From contig JANLFM010000035.1 of NCBI GenBank assembly GCA_024655865.1, positions 1 through 9,923 of the forward strand: 9,923 nucleotides of DNA, read 5' to 3'. The DNA is from Caldisericota bacterium. GTDB lineage: Bacteria; Caldisericota; JANLFM01. This document shows positions 4,156-9,923 of this stretch, piece after piece. Every line of letters begins with the position of its first letter. The first letter of the stretch is position 1. The notes beneath the pieces are model-generated. The model was not told where the DNA came from and did not search any database. It worked only from the letters and a program-made list of their open reading frames with translations. Position numbers and translations under genes: made by a program.

Positions 4156-4262
4156 GGGTAGAGCGGAGGCGGCGGGTGGGCGGGACCTATCCGAAGAGCA
4201 GGGGTAGGCCCGCAAGAAGACCGAGCCCTGCTTACTAACTGGGTGAAGGCGCCTCCTCGAGG
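4156..4262. repeat. Structured repeat, left copy (A) of the pair flanking the module
   Basis: This segment matches 9035-9149 in the same orientation with about three-quarters identity and several indels. The longest shared blocks are CTGCTTACTAAC and GAAGGCGCCTCCTCG. It can fold: an outer stem pairs GGAGGCG (4165-4171) with CGCCTCC (4250-4256), and an inner hairpin pairs AGCAGGG (4197-4203) with CCCTGCT (4226-4232). Because the indels shift any reading frame between copies, similarity is at the nucleic-acid level and a coding role is unlikely. Possible identities are a structured RNA, a miniature mobile element, an extragenic palindrome, or diverged attachment ends of the inserted block. Confidence 0.65.
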
Positions 4263-4608: not shown

Positions 4609-4621
4609 TTAATTCTGATTT
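4599..4621. terminator. Hairpin straddling the stop codon of the integrase remnant
   Basis: AAATCAGAA (4599-4607) pairs perfectly with TTCTGATTT (4613-4621) around a five-base loop. The stop codon of the truncated recombinase (4609-4611) falls in the loop. The stem is AT-rich and the U-run is short on both strands, so it may be a weak terminator or an mRNA 3' structure. Confidence 0.35.
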
Positions 4622-5055
4622 TTGGCCACCTTTGTTTCCCCTCCTCGCCTGCTTCCTCTTCTTTTTTTGCTTCCACAATTATCAAGGGGTCTTCTCAACT
4701 TCCAACCCTGCATGGGGCTCCTTTCTATTACCTCGGCGCTTATAAGGAAGCAAAAGAAGGCCCGTAAGGCCCGGAAGTAAAAGGCATAAGAGTAGTTCAC
4801 ACTTTCTGGAGTGCGCGGTTTGTGGTGTATCCCATCAACAAAGTGATCTAGGAAATCCAAGATGTTTTCTTTTGTAGGAGGCCACTTCCCGTCCTTGGCA
4901 TAATGGCCAAGGCACTCTTTGTAGAAGCGAAGGGTAATAGGAGATCCTCTTTCTTTTCGTTTTAAATCCAGAAAAATTGAATTTGAAGAACGACAGACCC
5001 CACTTTTTTCATATGCGGCTCCATTCTCTGGAAGCAGCTTCACAACTGATTTCAC
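4609..5055 (-). pseudogene. Truncated tyrosine recombinase/integrase (core-binding domain only)
   Basis: The 148-codon frame from GTG 5055 contains a SAM-like core-binding domain of phage integrase type. Recognisable parts are TLRFYKECLGHYAK (about 41-54), ENILDFLDHFVDG (about 63-75), YAFYFRALRAFFCFLISA (about 90-107) and the closing ERSPMQGWKLRRP. In complete tyrosine recombinases of about 300 residues the catalytic domain, with its Arg, His-x-x-Arg, His and Tyr, follows immediately. Here it is replaced by a short basic tail (KKRRGSRRGGETK) and a stop, and I find no catalytic motif in any frame downstream. There is no Shine-Dalgarno before the GTG, and the frame is open upstream to about 5165 without an ATG. 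An A7 run at about 4663 is a possible frameshift point, but correcting it adds no catalytic domain. It is most likely a remnant of the enzyme that moved the module, though a stand-alone DNA-binding protein cannot be excluded. Confidence 0.65.
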
Positions 5056-5174: not shown

Positions 5175-6638
5175 CTATTCTATCGGTAAGAATAAATTTG
5201 AACCAATCATTTTCAATTTCGGGTTTAAAGTTGCCGCCATTATGACACTTGAGGGGTTTATTAGTTTCCTTTTTTTGCTCACCTCTCCTAAAATTGCATT
5301 GATGTGCACGGGGCGACCAGTTTTCTGAAAAATATCCGTTACTATTTCTTGAACAGTATCAAAGAGAGTTTCTGAAGGTCGCTCATAACCCCATTCCTTT
5401 AAAGCATAAATGCCTTTTAGTCCAGCCCAAACAATCCCAAATTTGCCCCTACCGAGTATTGCATGAACCGCTCTCTCGGTAATTGGTTTGTTTGGAAAAA
5501 GGGAACAATAAACCTCTGTCACCTCGCTATAATGGGCGGGCCGGCCAATGGTTTTCAGGGCTAAATAAACAGATTCCTCCCTAGTCGAATAAATGCCAAT
5601 GGCCCCAATAATGCCCTGGACAAGTATTGTTAAATCTTCTTGCGTTAGAAAGGCCTCTTCAAGCTTTGAGCTTGCAATTGCTTGGTCGAGCAGAGTGATT
5701 ATTAAATTGAGTTCAATTCCCATTTCCTTCTTGTATAGACGGCAGAAAAGAGAAAGATCTAAGGAAGATCCTAAGATGAAAATCCCCGCCTCCGAAAATT
5801 CTCTGAAAGGAATATTGAAACATTTTGAAAGAATTCTTAGGATCCCGGCTTCTTTAGAATTTAGATTAAAAATCAGACTTCCTTTTCTGGAAATAATATG
5901 TTTGATCAATGAAACGGCAACAGGCTTAGCGACCTTTTTCGCTCTGGGATAGAATTTATGCTGTTTATAAAATTTGTTCTCAAGCTGGCGGATACGCTCT
6001 CTTGATAACCCCAGAGATCTGCCGATTTCTCCAAGGGTCATTTTTTTAGGGGTTAAAAGGCCTGCTCGGGCTAAGATTATATAGCGAATTCTTTCATCGA
6101 ATTTAGAAAGCCACTCTTGTAAGCAGTCTTCAGAAAGTCCCTCTGCAACGGTCTTAGCCTCGTTTTTTTCAGATATTTCTTCTTTAAGAGCATCTATGGC
6201 GCTCTTTGCAATTGGCATAAAGGAGAGGAGATGAGCCAAAGGAAAGACAAACTGATCCTGTTTTTCCGTAAGCCCGATCAAGCCTAAATCAGATCCAATT
6301 TGAAGGACACCTTCAGGGGTTCTCTTCCAACGCCCCTCAGTGCGCAAGGTACTTAATAGTGTGGCTATTTCCCTTGAAAGAAGCTTTCTTTTTTTGGAAA
6401 AAGATAACTTAAGGTTGAGGTCAAGAAGCCATTTGAGCAAGCTTTTCCGGGGTATGAAGTAATGATCCCTTTCGCCATCCTCTTCTAAGGACACAAACCG
6501 GTAGTCATTCAAAAGGGCTCGTTCTATTATTTCTGGATCAGCTTCCGACCCTGCAAAATCAAAAACTTCTTTTAGGGTGAAAGCTCTTTTGAAGCTACCA
6601 AAATAATCTAGTACTAGCTTTGTTAAATTCTCTTCCAC
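5175..6638 (-). CDS. Sigma-70 region-4-like plus HARE-HTH multidomain DNA-binding protein
   Basis: This is a 487-residue soluble protein from GTG 6638, 11 bases after the preceding stop. No strong ribosome site is seen, so translation is probably coupled. Residues 1-65 (LTLKEVFDFAG...IIERALL...HYFIP) look like a winged helix. About 172-225 resembles sigma-70 region 4: an ERIRYIILARAG helix and then the helix-turn-helix MTLGEIGRSLGLSRERIRQLE (199-219). About 355-416 (VYLALKTIGRPAHYSEV...ILGRGKFGIVWAGLKGIYAL) resembles a HARE-HTH domain, the fold also found in RNA polymerase delta subunit. About 423-486 (VQEIVTDIFQKTGRPVHINAIL...) looks like a second one. No sigma region 2 is present, so it is not a normal sigma factor. 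HARE-HTH domains are proposed in the literature to sense or read modified DNA and occur in restriction-type operons. I infer a DNA-reading or RNA-polymerase-contacting subunit of the module. Domain calls are by eye. Confidence 0.72.
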   Translation of the reverse strand: MEENLTKLVLDYFGSFKRAFTLKEVFDFAGSEADPEIIERALLNDYRFVSLEEDGERDHYFIPRKSLLKWLLDLNLKLSFSKKRKLLSREIATLLSTLRTEGRWKRTPEGVLQIGSDLGLIGLTEKQDQFVFPLAHLLSFMPIAKSAIDALKEEISEKNEAKTVAEGLSEDCLQEWLSKFDERIRYIILARAGLLTPKKMTLGEIGRSLGLSRERIRQLENKFYKQHKFYPRAKKVAKPVAVSLIKHIISRKGSLIFNLNSKEAGILRILSKCFNIPFREFSEAGIFILGSSLDLSLFCRLYKKEMGIELNLIITLLDQAIASSKLEEAFLTQEDLTILVQGIIGAIGIYSTREESVYLALKTIGRPAHYSEVTEVYCSLFPNKPITERAVHAILGRGKFGIVWAGLKGIYALKEWGYERPSETLFDTVQEIVTDIFQKTGRPVHINAILGEVSKKRKLINPSSVIMAATLNPKLKMIGSNLFLPIE

Positions 6639-6649
6639 AACGGATAATT

Positions 6650-7105
6650 CTATCTTTTTAAACTTTCAGCAATTCTTCGGGTTCCCTTTTCACAGCGTCC
6701 CCAGTTTAGTGACTCAGGAATAATATCTACATTAGGAAGGTATCTCCGAAAAATAAGGACCTTTTCCAGCCATTTTCTTTTTACTCCCAGATCTCGAATA
6801 AGGTGTTGATATAGGCCGTTAATCTGCAGCGAAAGCTTTTCAAGGTTATTAATTAGTTCAAAGATACTGTTTCCAAGTTCCCACACTTTTCTCGCAGGTA
6901 GTTTAACGCGTTTTTTTCTCAGCATTTCGATCTCGTTTACAATATTACGCATCACGATAATTGATTTTTTATATTCCTCAGAGGCTTTTCTAAGAATTAG
7001 CTCTGGATCGTCTTCTAAAGAAAATAATCCCTCCAGTGATATTGAAGAAATGTATTGTCCATTTGACGGCTCAAAAGATACGAAAGTTAATTTGTTTTTT
7101 CTCAT
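6650..7105 (-). CDS. Small helical protein of unknown family, middle gene of the module
   Basis: This is a 151-residue protein. Its ATG (7105) overlaps the stop of the ATPase gene as ATGA, which indicates translational coupling; the Shine-Dalgarno is weak. The N-terminal 30 residues (MRKNKLTFVSFEPSNGQYIS) look beta-rich. About 33-66 (DPELILRKASEEYKKSII and on to EMLRKKR) and 72-118 (RKVWELGNSIFELINNLEK and following) are long amphipathic helices with coiled-coil character. The protein is basic overall, and ends SLNWGRCEKGTRRIAESLKR. There are no membrane segments, signal peptide or catalytic motifs, and I recognise no family. Its fixed place between the ATPase and the HTH protein suggests an adaptor or regulatory subunit bridging them, which is inference from position only. 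Confidence 0.7.
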   Translation of the reverse strand: MRKNKLTFVSFEPSNGQYISSISLEGLFSLEDDPELILRKASEEYKKSIIVMRNIVNEIEMLRKKRVKLPARKVWELGNSIFELINNLEKLSLQINGLYQHLIRDLGVKRKWLEKVLIFRRYLPNVDIIPESLNWGRCEKGTRRIAESLKR

Positions 7106-8745
7106 TTTTTACCCCAGGCGGCCATCATCTTATCTACAAAGCCAAGTTCTGACTTTGAATCAGCCCCGCTTAGAAATCTTTGAATTGCTGCTGCAATCGC
7201 AAATAAACAGTGGACTCTTCTAGCAGTAGTGTTAGATCGGACCTTTATGTAAGAAGGGTGACCGCTGTTAATCACAATGTTATTCCCATCTACCCATGCT
7301 AAATCAACCCTCTCTACAGCCTCTAGAAAGGAGATCTTTGGCCCTCTTTTGCTATTCCGGGAAATCTGCGAAGCTTTCTTATCTCCTTCCTTTTTTTCCG
7401 ACAGGGCGACACCGGGAAAGTTTCCTACATCTAAAAGCCCTGGATTTTTGCTGCTATCCCCATCAAAGGTGGGAAAGGTTCCTTCAGCCCCTTCTTGAAA
7501 AATTGCAAATAGTGTCCCCTTCTCGTTTTCTTGAAGAATATGCTTTTTCTGTCTGAAGCCAAAAAATTCGCTTAGTTCAGGAACTTCATTTAAAATTTTT
7601 TTAAGTTCTCTTTCCAGCTTTAAAGCTTCGTCTGACCCCGTAACTTCCTGCGGGAGAATTCCTAAGCTATCTAGCCACGCTTTAAACTCCTGCCTAGCTG
7701 GGTCATAAATACTCTCAAACTCTTTATGTCTTGATTGGCGAGAAAAGTCGGTCTTTGAAGTAATAAGAAAATTAATTAACTCAGGAATCTCCACAATACC
7801 TAATATTCTCGTTGCAATTTGGTTTGGAAATTGATTAAAAAAATCTGCTTTAATTACCTTGCCATGAGTGCAAAGTAAAACACCACATACATCAGGCCCA
7901 ATCGGGTAATCCGAAGGAGATAGGCCGAAAAACCCCAATCCAATTTCCCGCCCAGCTTTCTTTAGTTTAAACTCCCTTACACTCTCTAGGTGAAACTTCT
8001 CAATTAATTTTCCGGGATTGATTGGTTTCCCATTAATAACAAACTTGAGGGTGTTGGAGTAAAACCCGCATTTTTCGTAATAGTCAAGAAAGTGAGAATC
8101 CAGAAGTGGAAGGTAATGCCTATTCAGAAGTTTTTCAATGTCTTCGGTAGATGAGTAGGAAATTTTTTCGGTTGGGGAAAATCTTACCTCTACTCTTGTT
8201 CCAAAGCCAGATAAATGAATAGGATGAATGTCTTCCCATACAAGTTTATTTCTATGGTCAAAATACCAATTAGAGCCTCCTTCGAAAAAAGGGCTACGGG
8301 TTTCGGTGAGAACTTTAGAGGCAATGTTGAAACTGATTTTCGCACCTACCCCAGCAAAACCGATACCGCTCCCCCTAGTTTTTAATCCTGCGGCAAAATC
8401 GTGGTATTGTTCAAATTCAGAAAAGTTCATCCCTTTGCCGTTATCAGTAACAACCAGGATTTTCTTAAGTGGATCAAAAGAAATCTCAATACGGTCGGGT
8501 TTTGCGTCAAGGGAGTTCGCAATTATTTCAACAAGAACAACTTCTGACACATCAAAAGGGTACATTTCAGCAAGGTCTTTAATAAGGTTTTGATAGTTCA
8601 CGCTACTTTCGTGCAACGTCACGTTTTTCCTCTCCAAGGCATTATTAATAATATTATATTTCCAAGGCAATGATATTCTTTCAAGAGATATTTTTCCAAA
8701 CTCTGTTTTTCTGAAAAGTTTTTCTGGAAAGAGGAGGGCATTCAC
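7102..8745 (-). CDS. GHKL (Bergerat-fold) ATPase, MORC/MutL/HSP90-like
   Basis: This is a 547-residue soluble protein from GTG 8745. An in-frame TAG just upstream rules out a longer start, and no good Shine-Dalgarno is visible. All Bergerat-fold ATP-site motifs are present: N box EIIANSLDA (Glu73 catalytic base, Asn77 Mg ligand), G1 DNGKGM (101-106), the G2 lid RGSGIGFAGVGAK (124-136) and G3 SGFGTRVEV (179-187). A transducer-like region (about 190-350) includes LCTHGKVIKADFFNQFPN and KTDFSRQSRHKEF, as in MORC/MutL-type ATPases. After a low-complexity linker (about 415-465), the C-terminus has DLAWVDGNNIVINSGHPSY and a final helix pair. There is no histidine-kinase phospho-acceptor or receiver domain, and no topoisomerase or MutL endonuclease motif. 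ATP-driven dimerisation around DNA is the expected mechanism for the family. MORC/MutL-like ATPases of this kind are known from prokaryotic restriction-type operons. It is the first gene of the trio and presumably its motor. Confidence 0.82.
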   Translation of the reverse strand: MNALLFPEKLFRKTEFGKISLERISLPWKYNIINNALERKNVTLHESSVNYQNLIKDLAEMYPFDVSEVVLVEIIANSLDAKPDRIEISFDPLKKILVVTDNGKGMNFSEFEQYHDFAAGLKTRGSGIGFAGVGAKISFNIASKVLTETRSPFFEGGSNWYFDHRNKLVWEDIHPIHLSGFGTRVEVRFSPTEKISYSSTEDIEKLLNRHYLPLLDSHFLDYYEKCGFYSNTLKFVINGKPINPGKLIEKFHLESVREFKLKKAGREIGLGFFGLSPSDYPIGPDVCGVLLCTHGKVIKADFFNQFPNQIATRILGIVEIPELINFLITSKTDFSRQSRHKEFESIYDPARQEFKAWLDSLGILPQEVTGSDEALKLERELKKILNEVPELSEFFGFRQKKHILQENEKGTLFAIFQEGAEGTFPTFDGDSSKNPGLLDVGNFPGVALSEKKEGDKKASQISRNSKRGPKISFLEAVERVDLAWVDGNNIVINSGHPSYIKVRSNTTARRVHCLFAIAAAIQRFLSGADSKSELGFVDKMMAAWGKK

Positions 8746-9037: not shown

Positions 9038-9149
9038 TAGCGGAGGCGCCGCCGGAGCTGGGTGGGAGGGCTTCTGTTCGATGAGCAGGGGGCGACCCGC
9101 CAGAAGGCCGGCCCCTGCTTACTAACCTGTTGAAGGCGCCTCCTCGGTC
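9035..9149. repeat. Structured repeat, right copy (B) of the pair flanking the module
   Basis: This is the partner of 4156-4262 in direct orientation. The outer stem is longer here: GGAGGCGCC (9042-9050) pairs with GGCGCCTCC (9135-9143). The inner hairpin is AGCAGGGG (9084-9091) with CCCCTGCT (9112-9119). The conserved single-stranded linker is TTACTAAC. The 85-codon minus-strand frame that covers it (8970-9227) arises from the repeat and has low-complexity Pro/Gly/Ser composition, so I do not treat it as a gene. Together with copy A it marks an interval of about 5 kb holding the ATPase module and the integrase remnant. Confidence 0.68.
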
Positions 9150-9227
9150 GGCAACCAATATCAGAGGGGGCTTTCTCTTCCTGTCCCGGCTTTGGGCGCT
9201 CGGCTCAATTACTAGATCAGCTTCCAA

Positions 9228-9254
9228 TTAAAAGGGGAGCTTGCGCTCCCCTTT
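9228..9254 (-). terminator. Rho-independent terminator of the right-hand operon
   Basis: AAAGGGGAGC (9231-9240) pairs with GCTCCCCTTT (9245-9254) around a four-base loop. On the minus strand the GC-rich stem runs into CCCCTTTTAATT, a classical U-rich tail. It lies directly after the stop of the 65-residue gene and ends that transcript before repeat B. Confidence 0.8.
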
Positions 9255-9256
9255 AC

Positions 9257-9454
9257 TCATTCCTCCTCTAATAGGGGCTCAAAGACCCTCACCTTCCACC
9301 CGGACTTGCGGCAAAACCCTGCGGGCTCGATCTCCACCCAGGGCTTCCACTCAGGGCCCAGGCTTCTCGCCCAAGCTCGGGCTTCCCTCTGGCTTGGAAA
9401 CCAGCGGGCTTCTTTAAGGCGCTTTCTGGTTTCTGGTATAATTTCCTGAGACAT
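9257..9454 (-). CDS. Hypothetical 65-residue protein
   Basis: I choose ATG 9454 because it has an excellent Shine-Dalgarno (AAGGAGGAG, four to six bases upstream). The longer frame starting at 9574 has no such site and would overlap the upstream gene. The product begins MSQEIIPETRKRLKEARWFP and is small and highly charged, with many Trp, Glu and Arg residues. SQREARAWARSLGPEWKPWVE and SGWKVRVFEPL suggest a compact alpha/beta fold. No family recognised. It is the last gene before a strong terminator and probably shares a transcript with the partial gene upstream, from which it is separated by 62 bases holding a GNRA-loop hairpin. GC-rich, unlike the module to its left. The context suggests a phage or plasmid accessory protein. 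Confidence 0.7.
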   Translation of the reverse strand: MSQEIIPETRKRLKEARWFPSQREARAWARSLGPEWKPWVEIEPAGFCRKSGWKVRVFEPLLEEE

Positions 9455-9485
9455 TTTCTCCTCCTTATGCTCAGCTTCCTCCCAG

Positions 9486-9507
9486 GGGAGGGGCTTTCGC
9501 CCCTCCC
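9486..9507 (-). other. Perfect GC hairpin with GAAA tetraloop between two genes
   Basis: GGGAGGGGC (9486-9494) pairs with GCCCCTCCC (9499-9507). On the minus strand the loop is GAAA, a stable GNRA tetraloop. No U-run follows on that strand, so it is more likely an mRNA processing, stability or pausing element than a full terminator. On the plus strand a T-rich tail follows, but there is no plus-strand gene to end. Confidence 0.5.
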
Positions 9508-9516
9508 ATTCTTCTT

Positions 9517-9923
9517 TTATAGGGCCTCTGCAGGTTCCCTGCGCCAACCAGGGGCTTCCAGGGAGCGGGCCCACTCCAAGTCTTTCAGCATGTCTATGGC
9601 GTGCGAGAGCTGGGCTTGTGAGCAGTCCTTGGAGGAAGGCGGGAAACCATTCTCTTCCAGCCAGGCGTGAGTGTCCTTGATCCCGGCTTTCCGTGCCAGA
9701 AGATGAAAGTAGCGGATCTGTTTTTCCGTGGCACGGCGAAAGGTTTTGGCTTTCTGGGCTTCTTCGATCTCCTCCTGGGCGTGGGGGTCATCTCTTAGGG
9801 AAAGGGCCACAAGCTCAGGATCGCTGACCACGACATCCTCGGCCTTCTCAGGCCTTGGCTCTTCCTTGGGCTGGGGAGAGGGCTTTTCCGCCAGCCTGAC
9901 TTCGGGGACGCTTCCCTCTTCGG
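9517..9923 (-). CDS. C-terminal part of a phage-recombination-like protein, N-terminus beyond window
   Basis: The frame is open from the right edge to a stop at 9517, at least 134 residues. The internal GTG at 9831 is not the start, because the frame continues upstream in an acidic, proline-rich linker (KPSPQPKEEPRPEKAED). The last domain, about 50 residues from ATEKQIRYFHLLARKAGI through DCSQAQLSHAIDMLKDL, resembles the short helical tail seen after the linker in many phage RecT-, ERF- or Rad52-type single-strand annealing proteins (pattern AT-x-KQ...A...GI...S...A...ID-x-L). If so, the missing N-terminus would carry the annealing fold, but other phage replication proteins share this tail. 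The very end (SLEAPGWRREPAEAL) is not conserved to my knowledge. Confidence 0.55.
   Translation of the reverse strand, partial: EEGSVPEVRLAEKPSPQPKEEPRPEKAEDVVVSDPELVALSLRDDPHAQEEIEEAQKAKTFRRATEKQIRYFHLLARKAGIKDTHAWLEENGFPPSSKDCSQAQLSHAIDMLKDLEWARSLEAPGWRREPAEAL

Follow-up and report, generated by a model that had tools for sequence, protein, structure and literature searches.

A recurrent three-gene cassette combining a MORC-like GHKL ATPase with a sigma-4/winged-helix protein: a candidate nuclease-free DNA silencer

In the genome of a Caldisericota bacterium (G000; 1.82 Mb in 63 contigs), we analysed a complete contig of 9,923 bases (C28), hereafter the window, which carries three closely packed minus-strand open reading frames (ORFs): 7102-8745 (547 amino acids), 6650-7105 (151 amino acids) and 5175-6638 (487 amino acids), referred to here as genes 1, 2 and 3. 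Genes 1 and 2 overlap by an ATGA at 7102-7105, and an 11-base gap (6639-6649) separates genes 2 and 3. The trio encodes a GHKL ATPase, a small helix-turn-helix (HTH)-like protein and a protein in which sigma-70 region 4 is combined with winged helices, and it recurs in the same order and with tight spacing in six other genomes. From sequences and structural models, we tentatively interpret it as a horizontally mobile, nuclease-free DNA-remodelling complex of the MORC type, recruited to promoter-like DNA and acting as a putative silencer. As to its purpose, the leading candidate is that it silences foreign DNA; the main rival is a role in DNA repair.

Because the same three genes recur in the same order in six other genomes, their arrangement is more than chance, bearing out a sequence-only reading that had taken them for a single unit. 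The additional hosts are one Atribacterota genome (Atribacteria UBA6794; locus L003), four Dehalococcoidia (L002, together with L100, L101 and L103 from the Dehalococcoidia search) and one other Chloroflexota metagenome-assembled genome (L090); L002 and L090 are both cut by contig ends. Gene order is strict in all seven loci from three phyla, window included, so the homologues have stayed together as that reading anticipated, and we saw no close gene 1 homologue with intact flanks that stood without genes 2 and 3.

The distribution of the trio is patchy across distantly related genomes, in keeping with the earlier suggestion of horizontal transfer. Within the window's phylum, the other 53 genomes examined, including members of the same genus and family, all lack it (present in 1 of 54), and it was therefore probably acquired horizontally in the window's genome. 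We found it in 1 of 50 Atribacterota genomes, which also yielded one diverged gene pair, and in 2 of 400 sampled Chloroflexota; strong matches occurred in 5 of 393 sampled Dehalococcoidia. Within the window, the guanine-cytosine (GC) content of the trio is 39.8%, versus 47.2% and 52.2% in the outer flanks. Horizontal transfer is the simplest account of both the scattered occurrence and this GC contrast. No relatives were detected at the sensitivity used among viral contigs and plasmids (searched with the ATPase and gene 2), plasmids (diverged ATPase) or phages (ATPase), and gene 3 returned only matches centred on region 4 from the viral, plasmid and phage collections.

Gene 1 encodes the complete GHKL ATP site that had been recognized from the letters alone. 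It matches Pfam HATPase_c_3 (3.1e-11), and its ATP-binding domain (residues 63-188 of the long ORF; 8182-8559, minus strand) contains all four motifs that characterize the superfamily, namely the N-box, G1, G2 and the fourth, ATP-lid motif (motif IV), seen as E73/N77, DNGKGM, GIGFAGVGAK and GT183 and all kept in a ten-sequence alignment of homologues. Identity to the ATPases of the six homologous loci is 45-64%. The gene probably starts at a GTG at 8622 instead of at 8745, giving 506 amino acids (7102-8622, minus strand), because a Shine-Dalgarno-like GGAGAGG precedes this GTG, homologues begin at or near the matching residue and no such site is found before 8745. Profile searches matched structures of Hsp90, MutL and MORC2, and the nearest equivalog family is MutL. 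Downstream of the ATP site lies an S5-domain motif, GVLLCTHGKVIK (7846-7884, minus strand), in which GVLLCTHGKVI departs from the MORC signature GhXhhpXXRhl, as given in PMC2292703, solely by a lysine for the arginine; this lysine is found in 8 of the 8 proteins that reach the position. A further lysine in TSKTDF, K331, is likewise conserved in 8 of 8 and is a putative lysine finger, and the C-terminal part of the protein carries the motif WVDGNNIxINxGHPSY.

Prokaryotic MORC and paraMORC ATPases, relatives of gene 1, have been described in conflict or restriction-type operons (Iyer, Abhiman and Aravind 2008; PMC2292703). Similar to these, gene 1 has a GHKL plus S5-like layout with every ATP motif and a near-copy of the S5 signature, and the trio is sporadic and laterally transferred, with a diverged version of its first two genes beside a type IIG enzyme. 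It differs in the lysine at the signature arginine and in having no superfamily II helicase, nuclease or DNA methylase, and its constant partners, gene 2 and the sigma-4/HARE protein, are not described for MORC operons in the parts of PMC2292703 consulted. With lysine where a strict MORC S5 domain has arginine, gene 1 is not a strict MORC and appears instead to stand beside the MORC/paraMORC group as a sister; as regards the paraMORC order of GHKL followed by S5, the alignment shows S5-like motifs plus the lysine. Judged by its sequence, the trio as a whole is a variant of the MORC/paraMORC kind, and neither an MZA system nor a sigma factor.

The putative link to promoters comes from gene 3 (5175-6638, minus strand), a 487-amino-acid protein in which sigma-70 region 4 and, after it, a middle part are flanked by winged helices, N-terminal ones on one side and two C-terminal ones of HARE-like type on the other. 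It is 29-36% identical to the third genes of the homologous loci. Region 4 (residues 170-232; 5943-6131, minus strand) matches Pfam Sigma70_r4 (8.9e-8) and superimposes on region 4 of Taq sigmaA bound to DNA (1rio_H) with Z 10.3 and 1.4 Å over 61 residues at 39% identity. The helix predicted to read -35 elements, SRERIRQLE (residues 212-220; 5979-6005, minus strand), contains an invariant RERxRQ and averages 82.5% pairwise identity across the seven trio loci, compared with 29-54% for other parts of gene 3 and ~35% for the whole protein. No Pfam match to sigma region 2 or 3 was found in gene 3 or its homologues, and sigma-factor matches were limited to the region-4 stretch. Gene 3 thus has region 4, by both Pfam and fold, and no region 2, which binds core polymerase and melts the -10 element; it is therefore not a sigma factor.

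An AlphaFold2 model of gene 3 built from 36 sequences (predicted local distance difference test score (pLDDT) 88.3) places winged helices in the N-terminal 140 residues, and its secondary structure defines a C-terminal tandem winged-helix region of HARE type (residues 350-485; 5184-5591, minus strand). HARE-HTH (PF05066) matched 29 of the 36 aligned members (best E value 4e-16); scans of seven trio proteins gave no match to it, so the 29 come from Patescibacteria relatives, and the gene 3 model has winged helices where those relatives match. The HTH domains that had been noticed in the last gene correspond here to region 4 and the modelled winged helices.

Gene 2 (6650-7105, minus strand; 151 amino acids) is 46-60% identical in the homologous trio loci. 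It had been called a helical linker; its AlphaFold2 model, built with nine homologues, instead predicts a compact fold (pLDDT 93.6, predicted template modelling score 0.88) of two strands, a long helical hairpin and four shorter helices with an HTH-like C-terminal end, where the helices carry the basic conserved segment GVKRKWLEKVxIFRRY. Comparison with the PDB by sequence and by fold gave no significant match, and fold matches to ParB/Spo0J (Z 5.5) were rejected because scores of this size fall within the tool's noise. We also discarded a gene 2 match in another genome (L087 in G086), a read-through containing seven stops. One diverged gene 2 homologue weakly matches DUF1016_N, the N-terminal domain of YhcG (E value 0.0078), and a profile-profile comparison of gene 2 with this family by hhalign scored 32.8 (prob 50, P 1.6e-4), against 24.3 for the best of 397 column shuffles, after exclusion of 3 of 400 that scored 130-135 as template-end artefacts. 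The motifs W-x-x-G-x-x-I and L-x-x-D-[LV] ... F align between the two, with weak statistics, and gene 2 lacks the nuclease domain of YhcG. We regard this relation as a faint lead, not as membership.

The silencing interpretation draws on the fixed co-occurrence and order of the genes, the intact ATP site, the near-invariant -35 helix, the predicted folds of genes 2 and 3 and the patchy distribution. MutL and MORC proteins close around DNA. In the complex that we propose, gene 3 would grip DNA, its sigma-4 helix reading -35-like promoter sequences and its winged helices making other contacts, and gene 2, which is conserved, would act as an adaptor and contribute an HTH that binds DNA or protein. 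On binding ATP, the GHKL ATPase would dimerize, like MutL and MORC, and clamp or compact the DNA located by gene 3. Such a clamp at promoters would block sigma and RNA polymerase and so silence transcription, most usefully on incoming DNA; foreign DNA would be the most natural target for a mobile silencer. No catalytic domain was recognized in the three proteins apart from the ATPase, and none of the seven loci includes a nuclease, helicase or methylase in the cassette, matching the earlier view that the trio lacks a cutting enzyme.

Consistent with a defence role, the Atribacterota copy (L003) lies in a defence island with HsdS and HsdR of a type I restriction-modification system, a TIR/ThsB-like gene and the PADLOC candidate PDC-S65, in that order, on one side of the trio and AbiEi/AbiEii on the other. 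The TIR, PDC-S65 and AbiE genes were rejected as trio components; since they are absent at other trio loci, they are neighbours only. The same island lends something to a phage-sensing or abortive system, in which gene 3 would detect hijacked promoters or an altered RNA polymerase and the ATPase switch would shut down the cell through host proteins: one trio copy stands beside TIR and AbiE genes, and sigma-4 domains are seen in structures to contact RNA polymerase and promoters. We nevertheless consider this distinctly unlikely, as no toxic or enzymatic effector domain was recognized in the three proteins besides the ATPase.

Several findings weigh against a dedicated silencer of foreign DNA, beginning with where the other copies lie. 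L003 is the one clear island among loci with usable flanks. Judging from translations, L100 is situated between proS and pheT, L101 is close to serS, and L103 and L090 adjoin a GatA-like amidase gene and a sulfatase gene, respectively; these neighbours are housekeeping-like, unrelated to one another and different each time, and most copies are thus outside defence islands. The predicted recurrence in unrelated genomes is borne out by the six further genomes, whereas, among the loci with usable flanks, a clear set of accompanying defence genes appears at L003 only, which does not support enrichment in defence islands. Because the placements differ, the trio is not a fixed housekeeping locus either; consistent placement in such a locus would have counted against the sequence-only reading.

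Gene 3 provides a further counter-argument. Over its C-terminal two thirds it is similar to a Patescibacteria gene with a fixed location: proteins of ~346 amino acids (L004-L081) align with residues 150-483, covering the sigma-4, middle and HARE parts, and lack a counterpart of the N-terminal winged-helix part. Their genes are widespread in Patescibacteria, recurrently beside topA- or secF-like genes (named by inspection), and genes 1 and 2 were not found beside them. Because these proteins share the C-terminal parts of gene 3 without genes 1 and 2, gene 3 may be built on a general sigma-4/HARE factor, and the Patescibacteria family is possibly an uncharacterized transcription factor of that group. 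A gene 3-like protein could accordingly be a general transcription or nucleoid factor. Extended to the whole trio, this would make it an ordinary host transcription or nucleoid regulator retained here and there by happenstance, a view to which the housekeeping-like surroundings of most copies and the likeness of the Patescibacteria proteins to core genes both lend weight. Arguing the other way, the trio is missing from every other genome examined in the window's phylum and from almost all sampled Chloroflexota, and it has a different location in each host; we judge such a regulator improbable.

A further challenge comes from one of two diverged pairs of the ATPase and gene 2. In one genome (G517; L102, 3849-6651), such a pair stands in the order dnaX-ybaB-recR-[pair]-recO, with recR and recO confirmed by TIGR families and the start of recO abutting the end of the gene 2 homologue; the same genome has a full trio ~10 kb away. 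This coupling to recO also counts against the silencing interpretation, and the recR-recO setting speaks for a function in repair, if only in that branch. In an Atribacterota genome, a second diverged pair (L089, 824-4107) is followed by the N-terminal part of a type IIG restriction enzyme/methylase (PADLOC 1.8e-21). Given these two settings, the ATPase and gene 2 appear to form a core used in more than one DNA-related context. Separately, a further diverged GHKL ATPase start, cut by a contig end, adjoins secA at L097 (G245).

Because a diverged pair lies between recR and recO, repair is a serious rival, albeit one that we consider somewhat unlikely for the trio itself. Under this alternative, a MutL-like ATPase and its DNA-binding partners would work with RecF-pathway proteins as a repair or recombination accessory, spread horizontally and without anti-phage function, and the nearest equivalog family of gene 1, MutL, agrees with it. 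The trio proper, however, never adjoins rec genes, and it is not obvious what repair would gain from a sigma-4 helix that reads promoters. MutL itself (TIGR00585) is present in all six Chloroflexota genomes searched and unmatched in the window's genome, its congener G050 and two Atribacterota genomes (G055 and G078). The trio as a MutL replacement in Chloroflexota hosts was therefore rejected, those hosts having their own MutL, and the lack of MutL in the window's genome is shared by the congener, which does not carry the trio.

We also compared the trio, as a putative silencing complex, with known anti-phage systems. The MZA system (MzaABCDE) likewise pairs a sigma-4 protein with a MutL-like ATPase, and one could take the trio for an MZA-like or restriction system that has degenerated or been split, its nuclease and methylase being encoded at another site. 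Weak matches of MzaA (sigma-4, up to 2e-8) and MzaB (0.21) and the type IIG enzyme behind the diverged pair of L089 point in this direction. The MzaA match is nonetheless restricted to region 4, which is C-terminal in MzaA but in the middle of gene 3, the MzaB match is negligible, and the other MZA genes are absent beside the trio, so that the MzaA-E set is not present. None of the loci has a Z1, AIPR or nuclease gene as part of the trio, and we give this explanation a slim chance. The anti-phage Shedu protein VcSduA (PMC12137116), a GHKL-nuclease, resembles the trio in that a GHKL ATPase is the proposed switch of a mobile defence protein, but it has its own PD-(D/E)XK nuclease, and none is recognizable in the trio. 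No PADLOC or NCBIfam model covers any of the three proteins. We found no description of the trio in the literature searched, which left out most subscription journals, so an earlier description is possible.

Prokaryotic MORC-type ATPases are known mainly beside cutting or modifying enzymes (PMC2292703), making the ATPase's own action hard to isolate. A stripped-down trio with a promoter-reading partner makes it directly testable whether such an ATPase alone can clamp and silence. More speculatively, and in our estimate rather unlikely, the trio might be the bacterial equivalent of silencing by MORC: an ATP-driven clamp, free of any nuclease, in which a captured sigma-4 domain finds promoters and transcription of invading DNA is shut down. 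If so, it would link bacterial conflict systems with eukaryotic MORC silencing.

The flanks of the trio contain repeats. The right edge of the window (9045-9921) is the start of a multi-copy element, comprising a GemA-like gene (9517-9921; GemA 0.0065, phrog_286 1e-4), a small gene (9257-9574) and a terminal repeat. Over 895 bp, this edge shares 79% identity with C62, a further contig of G000. As this terminal repeat also stands left of the trio (4174-4256; 77-80% identical to 9060-9146 and to C62), direct repeat copies bracket the three genes. The repeat gave no indication of a structured RNA (fold z -1.1, not significant), and an Rfam search returned no match. Repeats and integrase debris had both been proposed around the trio: the former are confirmed, with the further copy on C62, and for the latter we saw little. 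A 148-amino-acid ORF at 4609-5055 (minus strand) has a faint likeness to the core-binding part of XerD-type recombinases (E value 0.24), without a catalytic domain. Mis-binning of the contig is less likely, because further contigs of this genome also carry the flanking repeat, and because the aminotransferase encoded on the contig shares 79% identity with the one in a congener and 82% with a copy that a different contig of this genome encodes.

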